Origin: a virus | Direction: 5' to 3' (one strand) | Length of the DNA stretch: 28,427 nt | Virus record (IMG/VR): IMGVR_UViG_3300036790_000800 | Location: 1 to 28,427 of that record | Shown here: one piece after another, positions 681 through 25,979 of the stretch | How the letters are laid out: each line of letters starts with the position of its first letter | How positions within the stretch are numbered: position 1 is the first letter of the stretch | Program-made: the position numbers and the translations under genes | The notes under the pieces: model-generated | Told to the model about the DNA's origin: nothing | What the model saw: the letters and a program-made list of their open reading frames with translations, nothing else | The model's database searches: none

Positions 681-1673
681 CTAAGATTCCTCAAGAATTC
701 GAAGCGCCGGCGCGCGCCGCGGCAGCCGTCGATACACCCTGCGCGTCATCCTGACGTCGGCGTGCGCGAGCCGGTCGGCGGCCTCCTGGTCGCTGCCCGC
801 ATCGCTCGCCGACTTCGCGCGCAGGTCGTGGAAATGAAATCGCGCCGACAACCCAGCCTTCATCGCCCTGCGCATTAAACGCTGCCACTGGCTCTGAAAG
901 CCGTTCATAGAATACGGGCTGCCCTTGCGGTTGCAGATCAGCGCGCGCCGCATCTGCGGCCGCTCGCGCAGCAGCGCCTGCACTGTAAGGCGCAGCTCCT
1001 CGTTCCATTCAATCAGCTGGCGCTCGCCCATCTTGCGCCGCTCGAAGCTGATCCCCTCATCTGTCAGGTGGCGGCGCTCGAGTCTTCGAATCGTCCCCTC
1101 ATCCATCCCGCCCAACAGCGCCAGATCCATCGCGTACCCGATCATCGGCTGCGCGAGATCTCGCACCAGCAAAAACTCCTCATCTGTCACATACCGCTCG
1201 CGCGGCTTTGACTGCGGCAGCTGCAGGCCGAAGCACGGATTGGGTCGCGTGCGTGCTCCGATGCGCCGCGCGAACGTCAGCAGCGTCGATAGCGCCCGCA
1301 CTTCGTGCCTCGCCTGTTCCGTCGCGCCGCGCCGGCGCCAAAAGTTCCACACATGGTGCGGCTCGATCGTCTCGGCCGGCATGTGGCCGAAGACGCGCGC
1401 GATCATCTTGAATTCGCGTCGACGGCTTTTCCGCGTCTCCTCAGCCTTCGTGCTGAGCTCCTCAACGTCAAAGCGCGCGATCAACTGGTCGATCGAATTG
1501 CCGGGCGCGGCCGCGCCCAGAAGCGATGCGAGGCGGCGAAGCGCCTCGGCGTAGTCGGCGCCCAGGCGCTTCCAGCTGCCGGCTCGATCGACGTAGTAGT
1601 ACGATCCCGACCGGAAATACACGCGCTGCGGCAGGTGCCTGTCGCTTTTTCTTTTTCTCCCCACGCCTGACAC
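681..1673 (-). CDS. int: Tyrosine recombinase (phage integrase) with the first catalytic Arg replaced by Asp
   Basis: A phage integrase of about 330 residues. The N-terminal region (about 1-60, GRKRK then LPQRVYFRSGSYYYV) is the arm-binding type. A core-binding helical domain (about 60-155) and the catalytic domain (about 160-320) follow. Numbered from the GTG at 1673, the visible active-site residues are Lys214, His282-x-x-Arg285 (HDLR), His304 and the nucleophile Tyr314 (RVYRRLP). The position normally held by the first Arg (G-x-R) reads GGMDEG, with Asp191 encoded by GAT. The frame is open to an ATG at 1772, but that start would lie inside the DUF4224 gene. The GTG two bases after that gene's stop fits the operon better. 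The role is attP/attB recombination if active; the substitution makes activity doubtful. Confidence 0.88.
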   Translation of the reverse strand: MSGVGRKRKSDRHLPQRVYFRSGSYYYVDRAGSWKRLGADYAEALRRLASLLGAAAPGNSIDQLIARFDVEELSTKAEETRKSRRREFKMIARVFGHMPAETIEPHHVWNFWRRRGATEQARHEVRALSTLLTFARRIGARTRPNPCFGLQLPQSKPRERYVTDEEFLLVRDLAQPMIGYAMDLALLGGMDEGTIRRLERRHLTDEGISFERRKMGERQLIEWNEELRLTVQALLRERPQMRRALICNRKGSPYSMNGFQSQWQRLMRRAMKAGLSARFHFHDLRAKSASDAGSDQEAADRLAHADVRMTRRVYRRLPRRAPALRILEES

Positions 1674-1674
1674 G

Positions 1675-1878
1675 CTAATGCCTCGCCGGCAGCGCGTCAA
1701 AATTCGGCTCGATCGATGTCCTGGTCGGCCGGTCCGGAGCGATCGAATCGGCGCGCACGGTAGGGTGACCATCAGCCCGGACGAAATGCTGCACCCCGTT
1801 TTTTCTGAGCCACCCGATCTGCCGCGCCGGCTGGCGGTAGCCGGTGAGCTCCTCGAGCTGCTCGCGCGTCAGAAACAT
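1675..1878 (-). CDS. DUF4224 domain protein upstream of integrase
   Basis: A 67-residue protein beginning MFLTREQLEELTGY and continuing with a WLRKNGV..F segment, the signature of the DUF4224 family. That family usually sits directly upstream of a phage integrase, as here. The short helix-turn-helix-like N-terminus suggests a DNA-binding or recombination-directionality role, but none is proven for the family as far as I know. The frame is open further upstream to 2019, but that extension is low-complexity Arg/Ala/Pro sequence overlapping the neighbouring gene. The ATG at 1878, five bases after the previous stop codon, is the sensible start. The stop at 1675 is two bases before the probable integrase GTG. 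Confidence 0.8.
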   Translation of the reverse strand: MFLTREQLEELTGYRQPARQIGWLRKNGVQHFVRADGHPTVRADSIAPDRPTRTSIEPNFDALPARH

Positions 1879-1882
1879 GGTG

Positions 1883-2491: not shown

Positions 2492-2526
2492 GCGTTTCCC
2501 CTTGACGCAGATTGCGAAGGGAAGAG

Positions 2527-2555
2527 ATTAAACACCGCGTTTAATTGATCGTCAA
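2527..2555 (-). promoter_or_regulatory. Leftward (integrase operon) promoter
   Basis: On the minus strand TTGACG (2555-2550) and TTTAAT (2532-2527) are separated by exactly 17 bases, matching the sigma-70 consensus at five of six positions each. Transcription would start near 2520, about 28 bases before the GTG of the membrane protein. The 17-bp operator at 2528-2544 covers the -10 box and most of the spacer, so bound repressor would block RNA polymerase. Confidence 0.75.
2528..2544. promoter_or_regulatory. Operator OL (copy 4 of the 17-bp palindrome)
   Basis: The sequence is TTAAAC-ACCGC-GTTTAA, an inverted repeat with six-base arms and a five-base spacer. It matches the three operators in the repressor/cro intergenic region (core TAAAC-N5-GTTTA) but lies about 1 kb away, on the promoter of the integrase operon. 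It is probably bound by the repressor and/or the Cro-like protein. Confidence 0.78.
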
Positions 2556-2580
2556 CGTCCTGTTTATTTGCAACAGCCCG

Positions 2581-2970
2581 TCAGTGGGCTTCGGATGCAT
2601 TCCCCACGCCGGCGACGTAACGATTGAAGCCATCGAGCACGAGGCTCGCACTCGGGACGCAGCCAAACATGTTGTTGCAAAAAAAGGTGGCCACGATCGC
2701 GTAGGTGCCGTTCGGCTGTGGCGCCTTGTTCACGGTCGCCGCGAGTGCGGCGTCGCCAGGTCCTGGGTTGAACGTCTGCATGAAGTCGGGCGAGTAGGTC
2801 TGAATCTTGTATGCCGTGTTCTGCAGCACGTAGGTGCGCGCTGCGGCCCATTTAACAGTGCAGTCCGCGTCGCTCGAGCAGATCGGAGCAGGAGCGATCG
2901 GCGCGGACGGCGTTGTCGCGCAGCTGATCAAAGACGCGGCGATCGGCGCGGCGAGCATATTTCTGCGCAT
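2581..2970 (-). CDS. Secreted lipoprotein, possible lysogenic conversion gene
   Basis: A 129-residue protein with a short signal peptide (MRRNMLAAPIAASLIS) and a lipobox LISC, so Cys17 would be lipidated. The mature part has four more cysteines (CSSDADC near residue 31; CNNMFGC near 98) that could form disulphides in the periplasm. It belongs to a family of small hypothetical proteins I recognise by NPGPGD, a central YKIQT and NMFGC; no function is known to me. The ATG follows a very strong ribosome site (AAAGGGGGG, three bases away). The gene lies 120 bp downstream of the repressor on the same strand and may be read from the lysogenic transcript. A surface or exclusion role is speculation. 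Confidence 0.78.
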   Translation of the reverse strand: MRRNMLAAPIAASLISCATTPSAPIAPAPICSSDADCTVKWAAARTYVLQNTAYKIQTYSPDFMQTFNPGPGDAALAATVNKAPQPNGTYAIVATFFCNNMFGCVPSASLVLDGFNRYVAGVGNASEAH

Positions 2971-3090
2971 ATTCCCCCCTTTGTCGATCGTGCGTTTACC
3001 AGAAATTGCTACCCGGTGACACTGTCATTTCTAGCAGGTTCATGACCTGGACCTCATCCAGTAGGCTTGCGAAATTGGGCGCTGGTGCGT

Positions 3091-3501
3091 TTACCGTCTG
3101 GCCAGTTTGCTATGTCGCCGGTTCGGGCGAGACGCTTCCATCTCACACCCCTCGAGCGCCAGGCGCACGGCGATTCGAAAGTCTCGTCTCTGCTCCTCGG
3201 GAAGCGCCTCGTAGCGGTCAATTTCCCACTCGAAGGGCCACGCGGTGCGCACTGGCGCCTGCGGCCTGGGGGCCCCTCTATCGGGCACTAATCCAACGAG
3301 TTCATCCAGCGAGCGGCCCAGGACGGCCGCGCATGCAACCCACATCGTCGGCGGGATATCGCCCCCGCGACGCTTCCAGTTCGTTAGGTTCTGCGGCGCA
3401 AGATTCAGCTTTTTTGCCAGCGCGGCGACGTTCCAGCCCTTTGCACTGGCCCACCGAATTGCTCGGGCGAATTGCGTCTCCGTTTTGGGCGCTCTGGCCA
3501 C
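3091..3501 (-). CDS. Helix-turn-helix phage repressor (CI-like)
   Basis: A 136-residue DNA-binding protein with a GTG start at 3501. Residues about 20-46 form an XRE/lambda-repressor-type helix-turn-helix (KGWNVAALAKKLNLAPQNLTNWKRRG, with PQNLTNW as recognition helix). The C-terminal half is short and charged and lacks the Ser-Lys S24 peptidase domain of RecA-cleaved repressors, so induction would need another route. It is transcribed away from the Cro-like gene across three shared operators. The nearest operator ends nine bases before the start codon, and no Shine-Dalgarno is visible. It is expected to maintain lysogeny by binding the TAAAC-N5-GTTTA sites. Which of the two divergent proteins is repressor and which is Cro is inferred from strand and neighbours. 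Confidence 0.85.
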   Translation of the reverse strand: MARAPKTETQFARAIRWASAKGWNVAALAKKLNLAPQNLTNWKRRGGDIPPTMWVACAAVLGRSLDELVGLVPDRGAPRPQAPVRTAWPFEWEIDRYEALPEEQRRDFRIAVRLALEGCEMEASRPNRRHSKLARR

Positions 3502-3509
3502 GGGGAAAG

Positions 3510-3538
3510 ACTAAACAATCCGTTTAGGCATTTGTTAA
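3510..3538 (-). promoter_or_regulatory. Repressor promoter (PRM-like)
   Basis: On the minus strand TTAACA (3538-3533) and TTTAGT (3515-3510) are separated by 17 bases. A start 6-8 bases downstream of the -10 falls on or next to the repressor GTG at 3501, so the message may be leaderless. Operator 3511-3527 covers the -10 box, and operator 3535-3551 overlaps the -35 box. Confidence 0.6.
3511..3527. promoter_or_regulatory. Operator 1, repressor-proximal
   Basis: CTAAAC-AATCC-GTTTAG, a perfect inverted repeat with six-base arms. It begins nine bases upstream of the repressor start and overlaps the repressor -10 box, so binding here should shut off the repressor gene. Confidence 0.8.
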
Positions 3539-3551
3539 ACGCCGCGTTTGA
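3535..3551. promoter_or_regulatory. Operator 2, central
   Basis: TTAAAC-GCCGC-GTTTGA, one mismatch from a perfect inverted repeat. Its centre is 24 bp from that of operator 1. It overlaps the -35 boxes of both divergent promoters. Confidence 0.78.
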
Positions 3552-3577
3552 CTTTTTCTGTAAACGCGGTGTTTACT
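3548..3577 (+). promoter_or_regulatory. Early rightward promoter (PR-like)
   Basis: TTGACT (3548-3553) and TTTACT (3572-3577) are separated by 18 bases. Transcription should begin about 3584-3586, right at the Cro-like ATG at 3586, which has no Shine-Dalgarno; a leaderless transcript is likely. Operator 3560-3576 covers the spacer and the -10 box. Confidence 0.62.
3560..3576. promoter_or_regulatory. Operator 3, cro-proximal
   Basis: GTAAAC-GCGGT-GTTTAC, a perfect inverted repeat with six-base arms, centred 25 bp from operator 2. It ends nine bases before the Cro-like start codon, mirroring the nine-base gap on the repressor side. Confidence 0.8.
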
Positions 3578-3585
3578 CCGCGTCG

Positions 3586-3792
3586 ATGGATGGCCAGACC
3601 ACCGCCAGATTGATCGATGCCGCCGGCGGCGACACCGCGTTCGGCAAGCTCCTGGGCATCGGCGGAGAGGCCGGCTTTCAGCAGCGGGTGAACAACTGGC
3701 GCCGGCGCGGACTGCCGGCGGCCGTGGCGCTCGAGCATTACGACGTCGTCAAGAAACTGCACGCGAAAATAGGGCGCGGGCGCGCTCGCTAG
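3586..3792 (+). CDS. Cro-like helix-turn-helix regulator, first early gene
   Basis: A 68-residue DNA-binding protein. Residues about 8-43 (LIDAAGGDTAFGKLLGI then QQRVNNWRRRGLP) form the compact helix-turn-helix of Cro-type proteins, in which the NNW..RGLP motif is typical. The tail is basic (KKLHAKIGRGRAR). The frame extends upstream to 3472, but that would run through the operators and the repressor start, so the ATG at 3586 is preferred. It is the first gene of the rightward early operon and probably competes with the repressor for the three operators. No ribosome binding site is visible, in agreement with the predicted transcription start at or next to the ATG. Confidence 0.85.
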   Translation: MDGQTTARLIDAAGGDTAFGKLLGIGGEAGFQQRVNNWRRRGLPAAVALEHYDVVKKLHAKIGRGRAR

Positions 3793-3802
3793 CTGCAAGC
3801 CG

Positions 3803-4057
3803 ATGGCTCCCGCACGCAATCTCATCCGCTCACCGGCACGACTTAATCTGGCGCGCATCGCCAGCAAACCCCCGATTCGCGATCGCCGGCGACTGGCGCG
3901 CCAGGCCGCCGATGCCCTGGTCGCCTGGCGGCGGAAGTGGGAGCGCGAATTTTGCTCCGCGCCGAGTGAAGGCATGGGGCAGGGCGACGAGCTTCGGATG
4001 TGGCGGGTCGCCGGCCGCCTCATGGCGGCGCGAGGCATCCGGAGTCGGTTCGCGTGA
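3803..4057 (+). CDS. Small basic early protein, unknown function
   Basis: An 84-residue, Arg-rich and largely helical protein that starts 10 bp after the Cro-like gene and overlaps the next gene by 4 bp (GTGA). The sequence has no motif I recognise: a basic N-terminus (RNLIRSPARLNLARI), a helix with ALVAWRRKWEREF, and a C-terminal helix ending MAARGIRSRFA. Its position between cro and a ribbon-helix-helix gene is where phages often carry CII-like or other regulatory proteins, but no helix-turn-helix is evident. Real on grounds of packing; function unknown. Confidence 0.6.
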   Translation: MAPARNLIRSPARLNLARIASKPPIRDRRRLARQAADALVAWRRKWEREFCSAPSEGMGQGDELRMWRVAGRLMAARGIRSRFA

Positions 4058-4278
4058 GCGAGAAGCTCAAGGATTTTCGCGGCAAGATCACGCCGGAGAT
4101 CTATGTCGCGCTCGAGGCCGAATCGCGCGTCAGCGGACGCACGCACTCGGAGATCGCGCGAGAGGTTTTGCACCGTTGGGCCCTCGAAAAGCTGCACATT
4201 TCCAGCGTAGTCGAGGGGCTTGCCGCCGCTGAGGGAATCGGAGGGAGAGCGAGGGATCGCTCGCCCGGCGGGCGCTGA
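4054..4278 (+). CDS. Ribbon-helix-helix-like phage regulator
   Basis: A 74-residue protein. Residues about 6-45 (LKDFRGKITPEIYVALEAESRVSGRTHSEIAREVLHRWA, stated in parts: DFRGKITPEIYVAL, then ASGR-like turn, then EIAREVLHRWA) match a family of small phage proteins of the CopG/Arc ribbon-helix-helix kind. A beta strand is followed by two helices. The GTG start at 4054 overlaps the preceding stop in a GTGA. It probably binds DNA as a dimer; the target is not visible. The frame is open back to 4000, but that part overlaps the previous gene and has unlike composition. Confidence 0.65.
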   Translation: MSEKLKDFRGKITPEIYVALEAESRVSGRTHSEIAREVLHRWALEKLHISSVVEGLAAAEGIGGRARDRSPGGR

Positions 4279-4283
4279 CGACG

Positions 4284-4973
4284 ATGGCGCGACGTGACAG
4301 GGAAATCTCGGCAGCTGCGCCGCCGGTCGCGGGATCCACTGTCTTACCGATCTGGCCGCAGCGCCAGATCGCCCGCTGGCGTGACGCCATTCTCGACGAC
4401 GAGAAGCTATCCGCCGGCGAGAAGCTCACGGCCATGGCGATCGCGCGCTTCGCCGACAGCGCTTCCGCCAAGACCTTCGCTTCTGCGCCGCGCCTGGCGC
4501 GCCTGGCGAGCCTGGCCGAGCGCAGCGTGCGCACCCATACCCTGCGACTGATCGAGGCCGGCTACGTGCGTGCGGTGCGCAAGCCGCAGCGCTCCAGCCG
4601 CGCCTGGGCGACGCGCGAGCTGGTGCTGCTGCTGCCGCGAGGTGCGGCAAAAAACGACGCGAGGTGCGGCAAAAAACGACGCGAGGTGCGGCAACGGTTG
4701 CCTACTATCCCGTATATATCCAGATCTATCCCGGGGCCCGCCGCGCCGGCCGACTTTGCGGAGTCGGCCGCGCTGGGCCCGGAGATCGAGGCGCAGATCG
4801 GCGAGCTCGCGCACGCCGGCATGACCAGCGCGGCGATCGCCAAGCGCCTGCGCCGCGAGACCCCGCATGTCCTGAGCACCCGGCAGGTCGACGCGGTCCT
4901 GGCGCGCCAGCAGCGCTCGCTTCCGCTGGGGCCTTGCCTGGTGGCAGCGGACAAGCGGACGACTGGCAAATGA
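4284..4973 (+). CDS. Winged-helix replication initiation protein
   Basis: A 229-residue protein with an N-terminal winged helix-turn-helix (about residues 38-100: LSAGEKLTAMAIARF, SAPRLARLASLAERSVR as recognition helix, LIEAGYVRAVRK as wing) of the HTH_36 type found in phage replication proteins. A linker encoded by the 22-bp iterons follows, then a second small HTH-like segment (about 175-215, MTSAAIAKRLR..LSTRQVDAVLAR). The layout mirrors lambda O, where the initiator gene contains the origin. The expected role is binding the iterons and loading the host replisome; no helicase or loader gene follows. The stop overlaps the next start (ATGA). The alternative is a transcription regulator. Confidence 0.72.
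   Translation: MARRDREISAAAPPVAGSTVLPIWPQRQIARWRDAILDDEKLSAGEKLTAMAIARFADSASAKTFASAPRLARLASLAERSVRTHTLRLIEAGYVRAVRKPQRSSRAWATRELVLLLPRGAAKNDARCGKKRREVRQRLPTIPYISRSIPGPAAPADFAESAALGPEIEAQIGELAHAGMTSAAIAKRLRRETPHVLSTRQVDAVLARQQRSLPLGPCLVAADKRTTGK
4637..4694 (+). repeat. 22-bp tandem iterons, candidate replication origin
   Basis: Two identical 22-bp units (4637-4658 and 4659-4680) and the first 14 bases of a third (4681-4694). Each unit reads GCGAGGTGCGG followed by CAAAAAACGAC. An A/T-rich stretch with TATATAT follows at about 4708-4722 and would be a natural unwinding site. The repeat length is not a multiple of three, so each copy is read in a different frame and the repeats are unlikely to be kept for protein reasons. 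Confidence 0.7.
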
Positions 4974-6106
4974 GCGGCCGATACCAACGTGGCTCGCTGC
5001 GCCGCGAAGGGGACCGCTGGATCCTGCGCCGGCGCGTTGATGGCAAGGAACAGCGCCTGCCGATCGGCAAGGTGGCCGACCTGCGCACTGAAGGGGCGGC
5101 CAGGCGCGCGGCCGATGCGCTGCTCGAGACGATGGCCGAGGGCGCCCGGGCGGCAGGTGAGCGCATCACGTTCGAGCGCTATGCGACCTTTTTCCTCGAC
5201 AAGGTCTGCGCGCAGAAAAAGCCGGCGACCGTCGTGACTTATCGCAGCGTGATCAAGCAGCACCTGCTACCGCGGCTGGGCCGCGAACCGCTCACGCGCA
5301 TCGATGGACGGGCCTTCACGCGGCTGATCTCGGATCTGGAGGGCGAGCAGCTCTCACCGCGTACCGTGCGCCTCTCGGTCATTGTTCTGGCTCGGGCGCT
5401 GCGCAGTGCGCGATCGAACGGCTACGCGGCCGCGGATCCGGACACGAAGATCCTGCGGCTGGATTCCAAGCGATCGCTCGATCGGCCGCGGCGGGTTTTC
5501 ACACGCGAGGAGCTCGTCCGCATCGTCCATGGCGCCCCCTATCCGTGGCGCGCGCTGTACGCGCTGCTGGCGTATGCAGGCCTTCGCACCGGTGAGGCGC
5601 TCGGTTTGTCCTGGCCGGCGATCGACCTGGCCGGCGCGAGCATCACGATCTTTCAGGCCGCGTACATGGGCCAGATCCAGACGACCAAGACGGCCGAGTC
5701 GGCCGTGACGATCCCGATCATTTCGCACCTGGTCGAGGAGCTCGGCACCTTCCGCTATTGGTGGCAGGACAATTGTCGGCAGGCCGCGCCGCTGTTCGAG
5801 AACGCGCCTGGCGCGGGCCTGCTGTTCCCGTCGCCGCAGGATCCGGCGCGCGCCTGTCATCGATCGGGCGTGCATAAGCACCACTTCGTCCCGCTGCTCA
5901 AGCGCCTGGGGATCGAGCCGGAGGGCTTCCACATTTTCCGGCGCACCTACGTGACCGAGCTGTTCCGCGCCGGCGCGGCCGCGCCCACGGTTAAGCGCCT
6001 GGCTCGCCACTCGGATCTGAAAACGACGGAGCGCTACGCGCAGCTCAACGTTTCCGATCAGCGCGCAGCGGTCGAGGCCTTCGGACGCGCTTTGCCAGCG
6101 ACCTGA
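4970..6106 (+). CDS. Second tyrosine recombinase, catalytically complete
   Basis: A 378-residue site-specific recombinase. An N-terminal beta-rich arm-binding region (about 1-40, RYQRGSLRREGDRWILRRRV) is followed by a core-binding SAM-like domain (about 65-160, ATFFLDKV...TVVTYRSVIKQHLLPRLG). The catalytic domain has all expected residues: Arg206 (GLRTGEAL), Lys240 (TTKTAES), His321-x-x-Arg324 (HIFRR), His347 (ARHSDLKTTERY) and the nucleophile Tyr356. The ATG overlaps the replication gene's stop (ATGA). The longer frame from 4664 merely runs through that gene. Position inside the early operon, rather than beside the repressor, is unusual for an integrase. It may be the working integrase, a resolvase or an XerC-like resolution enzyme. 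Confidence 0.88.
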   Translation: MSGRYQRGSLRREGDRWILRRRVDGKEQRLPIGKVADLRTEGAARRAADALLETMAEGARAAGERITFERYATFFLDKVCAQKKPATVVTYRSVIKQHLLPRLGREPLTRIDGRAFTRLISDLEGEQLSPRTVRLSVIVLARALRSARSNGYAAADPDTKILRLDSKRSLDRPRRVFTREELVRIVHGAPYPWRALYALLAYAGLRTGEALGLSWPAIDLAGASITIFQAAYMGQIQTTKTAESAVTIPIISHLVEELGTFRYWWQDNCRQAAPLFENAPGAGLLFPSPQDPARACHRSGVHKHHFVPLLKRLGIEPEGFHIFRRTYVTELFRAGAAAPTVKRLARHSDLKTTERYAQLNVSDQRAAVEAFGRALPAT

Positions 6107-15164: not shown

Positions 15165-15527
15165 GTGCTTCGGTCGAACGTCTACAAGACGCCGCGACCG
15201 CACGAGATTGAGCTGCCCAGAAAGGACGACCTGGCGGAGATCCGGCGCTCGCACTGCGTCGCGGAATCCGGGCTGCTGCTCCAGGTCGTCGGCGACCCGC
15301 ACCTGTGCTATTGCCAGTGTGCGGATTGCGGTCAGGAGGTCACCGAGTATTTCGTCGAGGTTTACTCGCCCTGCGCGCAATGGTGGTTCAAGACGCCGGG
15401 CCCGTGGTTCTACCCGATCGACTGGCTCAAGCGCGTCGACCCGCGCGATCCGGTGCAATACGAGCGCGTGCGCAACTACATGCCGCTGTGGCCGACTGAG
15501 CAGCAGATCGCGCTGGCAAATCGATGA
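15165..15527 (+). CDS. Late protein with a cysteine cluster, unknown function
   Basis: A 120-residue protein with a GTG start two bases after the previous stop codon. A cysteine group CYCQCADCGQE (about residues 46-56) suggests a zinc knuckle. Aromatic sequence follows (WWFKTPGPWFYPIDWLKRV) and then a charged C-terminus. No family recognised. It overlaps the repeat-protein gene by 4 bp (ATGA). It may be a chaperone or minor structural protein. Confidence 0.52.
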   Translation: MLRSNVYKTPRPHEIELPRKDDLAEIRRSHCVAESGLLLQVVGDPHLCYCQCADCGQEVTEYFVEVYSPCAQWWFKTPGPWFYPIDWLKRVDPRDPVQYERVRNYMPLWPTEQQIALANR

Positions 15528-16558
15528 GCACATTTCGGCCGGTGCAGCCGCCGCAGCAGCCCGCGGTATTCTTTACACCTGGTGCTGCAGCGTCATTTCC
15601 GGCTGGCGCGCTTCAGCAGATCATCGGCAGATCTGGCTCGGACATCGCGGCACTCGATGAAGTACTGCCGCCGTTCATCGTGCAACCAGCGACGTCGCGC
15701 GTGATTTCGCCGCAACCCCTGCCGCCGATCGCGCCGCCGGCGCGCAGCGACCTGGCTGCGCTCGATGAAACGCTGCCGCCGTTTGTGATACCGATTCCGC
15801 CGCCGGCGGCTTCGAACGTGCCGCCGGCGAGCAGCTCGGCGCCGGCGACGTCGATTCGCGCCGATCTTGCGCCGCTGGACGAGGTGCTGCCGCCGTTCAT
15901 CGTGCAACCGGCGATGTCGCGCGTGATTTCGCCACCGGTGGCGCAATCGATCAGTCCGGCGGCGCGTAACGACCTGGCTGCGCTTGAGGAATCGCTGCCG
16001 CCGTTTTTCGTGCCGCTGCCTAGCGCGCCGCCCGCAAACGTGCCGCCGGCGAGAAGCTCGTCGATACCTGCGGCCGCGCGCTCGGAATTCGCGCCGCTGG
16101 ACGAGGTGCTGCCGCCGTTCATCGTGCAACCAGGGATGTCGCGCGTGATTTCGCCGCAACCCCTGCAGGCGATCGCGCCGCCGGCGCGCAGCGACCTGGC
16201 TGCGCTCGATGAAACGCTGCCGTATTTCACGCCGGCAGTAAGCGTCCCGCGCGGGATCGCGGTGAGCGCGATGATCCCTGCGCCGCGAGATTTCGCTGCT
16301 TACCAGCTGCCTCGATCGCCGTCACCTGGTCAGATTCCGCGCTTTGTGCCGGCTGGCAGAATTGCTGCACCGGCGTTTGCGACCCTTGTCGATCGCGCAG
16401 CGCTGCAGCGGCAGATTTTCGCGCCGATCGTTTTCGAGATCATCAAGCCACCTGCCGATCGCGTGCTCGAGGCGTTCTACCAATCGCGCACATTGGTCGC
16501 GGTGTACGGCGATCGCAGGATCATCGTCACCTACCGCACGCGCACGCTGGAGGCGTGA
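15524..16558 (+). CDS. Proline-rich repeat protein, putative virion or surface component
   Basis: A 344-residue protein built around a 74-residue repeat. Two full units and about half of a third start with LPPFIVQPxxSRVISP, continue with ARxDLAALxExLPPF and NVPPA, and finish with APLDEV. Six copies of the motif L-[DE]-E-x-L-P-x-F are spaced along residues about 43-235. The remainder (about 236-344) is non-repetitive: GRIAAPAFATLVDRAALQRQIF, then EIIKPPADRVLEAFYQSRTLVAVYGDRRIIVTYRTR, a small beta-rich end domain. The unusual Pro/Ala/Ser composition suggests an extended fibre, stalk or spacer. No family recognised. The ATG at 15524 overlaps the preceding stop. Confidence 0.6.
   Translation: MSTFRPVQPPQQPAVFFTPGAAASFPAGALQQIIGRSGSDIAALDEVLPPFIVQPATSRVISPQPLPPIAPPARSDLAALDETLPPFVIPIPPPAASNVPPASSSAPATSIRADLAPLDEVLPPFIVQPAMSRVISPPVAQSISPAARNDLAALEESLPPFFVPLPSAPPANVPPARSSSIPAAARSEFAPLDEVLPPFIVQPGMSRVISPQPLQAIAPPARSDLAALDETLPYFTPAVSVPRGIAVSAMIPAPRDFAAYQLPRSPSPGQIPRFVPAGRIAAPAFATLVDRAALQRQIFAPIVFEIIKPPADRVLEAFYQSRTLVAVYGDRRIIVTYRTRTLEA
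15665..16230 (+). repeat. 222-bp tandem repeats within the Pro-rich gene
   Basis: The DNA word beginning CTGCCGCCGTTCATCGTGC occurs at 15665, 15887 and 16109, exactly 222 bp apart (74 codons). The first and third units stay nearly identical for about 115 bases (about 15665-15780 against 16109-16224), while the second has diverged more. That pattern implies recent duplication or gene conversion between units 1 and 3. Confidence 0.88.
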
Positions 16559-25337: not shown

Positions 25338-25979
25338 ATGCCGAATACAAAGGCACAAGGCACAATCCTCTACGCCGAGTCGGCGCGCGCGGCTACAAAG
25401 CCGATAAGCGCCGTCACGAACGCAAATCCTGCGGTCGTCACGGCCACGGCCCACGGCTATTCGAACGGCCAGGTCGTATTTATCACCGGCCTGGTGGGCC
25501 CGACGCAGCTCAATGATCGCGCTTTCGTGATCAGCGGCGTCGCTGCCAACACGTTCACCCTGGGCGGTGAGGATTCCACGACCTACGGCGCCTATGTCTC
25601 GGGCGGCACGGCCGCGGCGCTCACGATGCAGAACGTCGGCCAGGTCTCCGACATCACGGCATTCGACGGCAAATCTTCCGAGGTCGACATCACGCACCTG
25701 CTGTCGGCCGCCAAGCAGTGGCAGCCCGGGCTGCCGGACTTCGGCAATGTCACCCTGCAGCTGATTACCGACAATGTCACGCCGGACACCGGCCAGGCGC
25801 TGCTGCGCTCGATCAAGAACCAGCAGAAGATCGTCGGCTTTCAGATCCAAACCGTGGACGGCAAAAACGCGGTGTTCACTGCCGGCGTCATGAGTTTCAC
25901 GGCAGACCTGAAAAAAGATAGCGTGCTTATGTCTCAGGTCGCGCTGCGCGTCTCCAATCAGCCGCAGTGGTTTGCCTGA
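25338..25979 (+). CDS. Major tail (tube) protein with an inserted domain
   Basis: A 213-residue tail tube protein. Residues about 90-213 (VSDITAFDGKSSEVDITHLLSAAKQWQPGLPDFGNVTLQL, then TGQALLRSIKNQQKIVGFQI, then GVMSFTADLKKDSVLMSQVALRVS) follow the usual tube fold. Residues about 21-90 (PISAVTNANPAVVTATAHGYSNGQVVFITGL...GVAANTFTLG) are a separate small beta domain of the kind repeated in many phage baseplate and surface proteins, probably displayed outside the tube. GGAG lies about eight bases before the ATG. Confidence 0.87.
   Translation: MPNTKAQGTILYAESARAATKPISAVTNANPAVVTATAHGYSNGQVVFITGLVGPTQLNDRAFVISGVAANTFTLGGEDSTTYGAYVSGGTAAALTMQNVGQVSDITAFDGKSSEVDITHLLSAAKQWQPGLPDFGNVTLQLITDNVTPDTGQALLRSIKNQQKIVGFQIQTVDGKNAVFTAGVMSFTADLKKDSVLMSQVALRVSNQPQWFA

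Follow-up and report, generated by a model that had tools for sequence, protein, structure and literature searches.

The 28,427-nucleotide viral DNA analysed here (the window, in the following always this whole stretch) contains what we read as a temperate-phage immunity region that follows the logic of lambda, in which a short CI-like repressor and a Cro-like protein would compete for five like sites. We put the probability of this reading, which is drawn from the DNA sequence, at about 85%. Two of the sites, OL1 and OL2, would control a leftward promoter into the excisionase and integrase genes, while OR1, OR2 and OR3 would lie where the repressor and cro promoters diverge.

Five operators in two clusters

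When up to one mismatch is allowed, the core TAAAC-N5-GTTTA occurs five times in the window. Dinucleotide-preserving shuffling of the whole window (1000 replicates) gives an expectation of 0.045 sites per shuffle, and none of the 1000 shuffles contains five or more. A pair of sites 22–26 bp apart is likewise seen in none of these shuffles, nor in any of 5000 shuffles of positions 2500–3800 alone. The five sites are the following.

2529–2543: OL1, TAAACACCGCGTTTA; one arm forms the -10 box of pL (site scan, shuffles)
2552–2566: OL2, TCAACGTCCTGTTTA, one mismatch; overlaps the -35 box of pL (site scan, shuffles; kept as OL2 in relatives)
3512–3526: OR3, TAAACAATCCGTTTA; one arm forms the -10 box of the putative pRM (site scan)
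3536–3550: OR2, TAAACGCCGCGTTTG, one mismatch in an outer base; shares bases with both -35 boxes, that of pR and that of the putative pRM (site scan)
3561–3575: OR1, TAAACGCGGTGTTTA; one arm forms the -10 box of pR (site scan)

The two clusters flank the repressor gene. The sites are 23 bp apart in OL and 24 and 25 bp apart in OR, and OL1 is identical to OR1 as a 15-mer when both are read in the direction of their promoters. The original prediction had listed four sites, each given as a 17 bp palindrome around the 15 bp core; all four are present, but the fifth, at 2552–2566, had been overlooked. The spacing of 24–25 bp that it gave for OR agrees with our measurement, and the layout resembles lambda OR as it had proposed. 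The operators at three promoters (repressor, cro and integrase operon) were also said to share one motif, and sites are indeed present at each of them. The 'integrase' site is an operator of this motif, although not a solitary one: it and OL2 together make up the OL/pL pair, which a gene in the rex position separates from the repressor gene.

A literal reading of the core as a 17 bp element (TAAAC-N7-GTTTA) shows no excess and was rejected. A candidate site at 25864 with two mismatches was also discarded, as it falls within coding sequence and does not exceed chance expectation.

Promoters built into the operators

Promoter elements were read by eye, and the rule for pL and pR was then tested by its conservation in relatives.

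2527–2555, minus strand: pL, TTGACG (2550–2555), 17 bp, TTTAAT (2527–2532); leftward xis–int operon (sequence, and the rule in 115 OL pairs)
3548–3577, plus strand: pR, TTGACT (3548–3553), 18 bp, TTTACT (3572–3577) (sequence)
3510–3538, minus strand: putative pRM, TTAACA (3533–3538), 17 bp, TTTAGT (3510–3515) (inferred from sequence)

Both pL and pR appear to be built into the operators, with an arm of operator 1 serving as the -10 box and an arm of operator 2 as the -35 box. With both hexamers in operator arms, RNA polymerase should be kept off these promoters by a repressor dimer bound at operator 1 or at operator 2. The central site OR2 overlaps the divergent -35 boxes TTGACT and TTAACA, just as the original prediction had described. 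It had further claimed that an operator arm forms the -10 box in all three promoters. This can be read so for each of them, and the rule is kept in relatives for pL and pR, but the geometry of pRM is not. In particular, OR3 and OR2 are 24–25 bp apart in the window and in Pantoea-type loci, whereas 21 of the 29 three-site OR regions of relatives among the matches listed have them 13 or 15 bp apart. Because of this difference pRM is the weakest and least certain of the promoter assignments. A sigma-70 scan of the window found no promoter, since the scan requires an A at position 2 of the -10 box.

The ATG of cro lies 8 nt past the -10 box of pR, and the GTG of the repressor gene lies 8 nt past the putative -10 box of pRM. 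The position of the cro ATG fits an mRNA that would be leaderless or nearly so.

Genes of the immunity region

The repressor and cro genes are divergent and both encode HTH proteins. Together with their neighbours they are arranged as follows.

681–1772, minus strand: tyrosine integrase, pL operon (profile matches)
1675–1881, minus strand: excisionase (DUF4224), pL operon (profile matches)
2581–2970, minus strand: gene in the rex position, between cI and OL (phrog_16082; N-terminus read by eye as a lipoprotein signal)
3091–3501, minus strand: CI-like repressor, 136 aa (N-terminal HTH, low-confidence linker 68–92, one predicted C-terminal helix, no S24 peptidase)
3586–3792, plus strand: Cro-like protein, 68 aa (phrog_8008, a DNA-binding family, E = 8e-12; weak YdaS resemblance)

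To the left of the cluster at 2529, on the minus strand, small ORFs are followed by the excisionase and tyrosine integrase genes. From int the region continues with xis, pL/OL, the extra gene, cI, pRM/OR/pR, cro and the O-like gene, the same succession as in lambda. The gene in the rex position is a candidate lysogeny-expressed exclusion or conversion gene.

The repressor matches HTH_3 in Pfam, above the cut-off, and repressor families in PHROGs, while no S24 peptidase match is found in it in Pfam, PHROGs or NCBIfam. The earlier description of a short repressor without a peptidase domain is thereby borne out. NCBIfam, including its DicA model, gives no match for this protein, and phmmer against the PDB gives no convincing relative of CI or Cro. 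The structural model of the repressor (eight sequences, mean pLDDT 62) consists of a five-helix HTH domain, the poorly predicted linker and a C-terminal helix spanning residues 102–124. Foldseek searches with this low-confidence model return HTH regulators, among them SinR, DdrO, P22 c2 and 434 repressor, with weak scores (best E = 6.5e-3), a list that supports an HTH repressor fold and nothing beyond it.

The Cro-like protein scores 16.3 bits against the YdaS family (PF15943), under the curated Pfam cut-off of 30, and is not placed in that family. The recognition-helix stretches of CI and Cro are alike (Q-x-[VIL]-x-N-W-x-x-R-G). Where the sites had originally been described as wired to one repressor, we propose that they are read by CI and Cro, the binding of both being putative.

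A second tyrosine integrase gene (4970–6106, plus strand; Pfam Phage_integrase, E = 3e-15) is present in the rightward early operon, and both integrase regions are near-identical in a sister contig. A small early ORF (4000–4278, plus strand) looks by eye like a ribbon-helix-helix protein and is a possible regulator of the switch; one relative of it adjoins the operators in another locus (L059, 921–1139). The O-like replication gene contains 22 bp tandem repeats, CGCGAGGTGCGGCAAAAAACGA, at 4636–4694 in the window and at 4637–4759 in L005. These are likely to be origin iterons as in lambda, and the sister contig has 66 bp more of the repeat. An ORF in the structural region (15524–16558, plus strand) carries repeated segments such as LDEVLPPFIVQPATSRVISPQPL.

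Conservation of the wiring in relatives

A search of viral contigs with a Cro alignment, which is independent of the operators, gives 27 loci; the corresponding scan of genome contigs gives no matches. A left pair and OR sites of the same motif are present in 18 of the 27 loci (14 distinct), and the nine loci without both clusters have Cro proteins that are among the most diverged. Scanning for the paired-operator pattern yields at least 120 viral and 96 genome stretches, many of them from Burkholderiales and Xanthomonadaceae and others from Pantoea/Erwinia, together with some probable AT-rich chance matches in other phyla. Loci retrieved in this way are biased towards operators and, because the pattern itself had selected them, the tests were limited to features outside the search pattern.

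Among the matches listed, GTTTA is followed by AT, giving TTTAAT as the -10 box, in 106 of 115 OL pairs and 58 of 63 OR pairs, and TTGACN is found at the arm of the second operator in 96 of 115 and 35 of 63, respectively. Arms of the GTTGA type stand at a distance of 23 bp (36/45 OL and 13/13 OR pairs among the matches listed) and those of the GTTTG type at 24 bp (62/69 and 48/49, likewise among the matches listed). The arm type thus co-varies with the site spacing, and as a consequence the spacer between the -35 and -10 boxes mostly stays at 17 bp (81/96 OL and 34/35 OR cases among the matches listed). With 18 bp, pR of the window is an exception. An ATG 5–8 nt past the -10 box is seen in 46 of 63 OR regions compared with 12 of 115 OL regions among the matches listed, in keeping with cro mRNAs that have no leader or almost none. 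The central five bases of OL1 and OR1 share 3.47 positions within a locus compared with 2.64 when the partners are shuffled (0 of 2000 shuffles; kinship among the loci is uncorrected), as expected if one protein reads both. Several genes of the window have no relatives in the locus set.

The paired TAAAC-N5-GTTTA core is a searchable signature that would mark immunity regions in many uncharacterised phages and predict the positions of their promoters.

Proposed mechanism and induction

In the lysogen, CI would occupy OR1–OR2 and OL1–OL2, an order of occupancy that we infer, and would transcribe its own gene and the gene in the rex position from pRM. Cro would be expected to prefer OR3, as in lambda. 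Repressors that are cleaved in the SOS response, such as those of lambda and P22, carry an S24 peptidase as their C-terminal domain. Since the window repressor has no such domain, RecA-dependent self-cleavage is unlikely, and induction would most likely depend on one of the two routes known for non-cleaved short repressors, namely a separate antirepressor or a CI/Cro switch that flips spontaneously or for physiological reasons.

This explanation can be narrowed to SOS-linked induction through a small LexA-controlled antirepressor, as in Gifsy. Such a route is known for this class of repressor, and the Rem–DicA pair of Qin is related. On the other hand, no exact LexA box (CTGT-N8-ACAG) is found in the window, although this consensus may not be that of the host. 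The seven one-mismatch boxes in the window are roughly at chance level or below by our estimate, and neither an antirepressor homologue nor a candidate gene is recognised in the window, the record of which may be incomplete (28.4 kb compared with 39.5 kb for the sister contig). We consider the LexA-controlled form a real possibility, at clearly less than even odds.

A reading in which the sites mainly serve Cro alone, or a different regulator of phage or host origin, and in which the 3091–3501 protein has no role as maintenance repressor is improbable. In its favour, it was through Cro that the phages were first linked, and the window repressor is a diverged partner, as the repressors of the relatives are about 20–43% identical to it and the best value, 43%, extends over 49 N-domain columns. 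Against this, an HTH repressor gene lies between both clusters in most loci with its start adjoining OR, and the layout equals that of CP-933P, a system in which the two proteins share their binding region.

Proposed exchange of the repressor C-terminal module

The repressors encoded beside these operators have the N-terminal HTH domain in common, while their C-termini differ, being either an S24 peptidase or one of various short types. S24 matches are found in the relatives L015, L075 and L251. The N-domains nearest to that of the window, those of L063 and L075, carry S24 domains, that of L063 scoring just below the Pfam cut-off. In a tree of 127 distinct N-domains (95 of the S24 type and 32 short, with L056 and L040 put in the S24 class by eye) there are at least 14 switches of this label, six of them forced by well-supported branches, counts that are indicative because the columns are few, many forks are open and a few short forms are possibly frameshifts.

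That the window repressor lost its peptidase by decay, leaving a locked, defective prophage and a short form that is no working variant, is improbable: a few short forms in relatives (L037 and L245) look frameshifted by eye, but in the sister contig the short form is intact and 99% identical, short C-terminal types recur (eight related Burkholderia-type and seven WPF-type repressors), and PaaR2, DicA and the Gifsy repressors show that a short form can function.

The S24-like repressor of L063 (11807–12475), on the same operators, reads GDTT where others read GDSM. It may therefore lack the catalytic serine, which would possibly be a further way of arriving at a repressor that is not cleaved. 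A WPF motif is present in the C-terminus of the window repressor, as in the seven other short repressors, but membership of its C-terminal 45 residues in this type is unsupported (E = 2.4 against the profile of the seven others, not above chance).

As a tentative proposal, about which we remain doubtful, one operator/promoter chassis (OL1–OL2, OR1–OR3, Cro and the repressor N-domain) may be common to many phages of Burkholderiales, Xanthomonadaceae and some other Proteobacteria, with the C-terminal induction module swapped repeatedly between SOS-cleavable and non-cleavable forms. Literature searches of open-licence papers found no description of this operator family and no earlier description of a conserved chassis with exchangeable induction modules. 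If the proposal is true, the non-cleavable repressor of a lysogen could keep a cleavable phage in the same cell repressed, since the operators stay alike, and a module swap would thereby change the winner in polylysogens. If the operators cross-react, cross-immunity is predicted among Burkholderiales prophages. How a phage alters its trigger of induction also becomes testable, with the wiring kept and the sensor exchanged.

Comparison with known systems

The immunity region of lambda is laid out as OL-rexBA-cI-OR-cro, with divergent pRM and pR, with pL directed into the recombination side and with sites spaced by about 24 bp. The window has in common with it the two clusters flanking cI, the spacing of about 24 bp, the divergent pRM and pR, pL towards the recombination side and a gene in the rex position. 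Given the OL/pL pair and this gene, the likeness covers the whole lambda immunity layout, beyond OR alone. Compared with lambda, the window repressor is short (136 aa) and has no cleavage domain, two OL sites are found instead of three, the -10 and -35 boxes of pR and pL both lie inside operator arms and the start codon of cro adjoins the -10 box.

Shewanella phage vB_Sb_QDWS (OK094664; L251) has the same operators, TAAACACCATGTTTA beside cro and TAAACACCACGTTTG and TAAACATGGTGTTTA across cI, and the same type of Cro and repressor N-domain as the window, whereas its repressor has an S24 peptidase domain. Its Cro (3632–3946 in L251) carries the annotation of an antitoxin, and databases apparently give YdaS-like Cro proteins wrong names, as toxin or antitoxin parts.

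Like the window repressor, DicA, GfoR, GtgR and RacR (Qin, Gifsy and Rac) are shorter than lambda CI (135 aa in the case of DicA) and have no RecA-dependent cleavage site, and lambda-like operators are described for dicA/dicC (PMC10448788, PMC3121763). The window repressor fits the format of this short class, which is about 130–140 aa with an HTH, a short C-terminus and no peptidase. The short, uncleaved DicA is relieved by the antirepressor Rem, or by spontaneous flipping and stress (PMC10448788), and the Gifsy repressors GfoR and GtgR, also short and uncleaved, are relieved by the antirepressors GfoA and GftA (PMC3121763). The window differs in that no homologue of Rem, GfoA or GftA is identified in it, and resemblance to DicA is seen as weak scores in the relatives L012 and L256 and not in the window protein.

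In CP-933P of E. coli O157:H7 the CI-like PaaR2 has no peptidase motif, is not mitomycin responsive and is leaderless, while YdaS is Cro-like; the PaaR2 and YdaS footprints overlap at OR and PL is repressed by both (PMC8630535). The window resembles this system in its short CI without a peptidase motif, in the Cro-like protein on the divergent operon and in the operators at pRM, pR and pL, and the leaderless cI mRNA of CP-933P has its counterpart in the repressor GTG close behind the putative -10 box. CP-933P differs in its own operators (consensus half GTTTAGTAA, 18 bp palindromes, four at OR), in the toxin–antitoxin pair behind paaR2 and in the CII-like YdaT, of which no equivalent is recognised in the window.

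As no NCBIfam or convincing PDB match is found for the window repressor, its likeness to PaaR2, DicA and the Gifsy repressors is taken as functional and it is not filed as their homologue. The absence of the peptidase groups it functionally with this uncleaved class, and by analogy it would work like these repressors. This absence is not anomalous, since non-cleaved short repressors with OL and OR are known by experiment. On this reading the window element belongs to a functional kind that is already known, that of lambda-like switches whose repressor is not cleaved.
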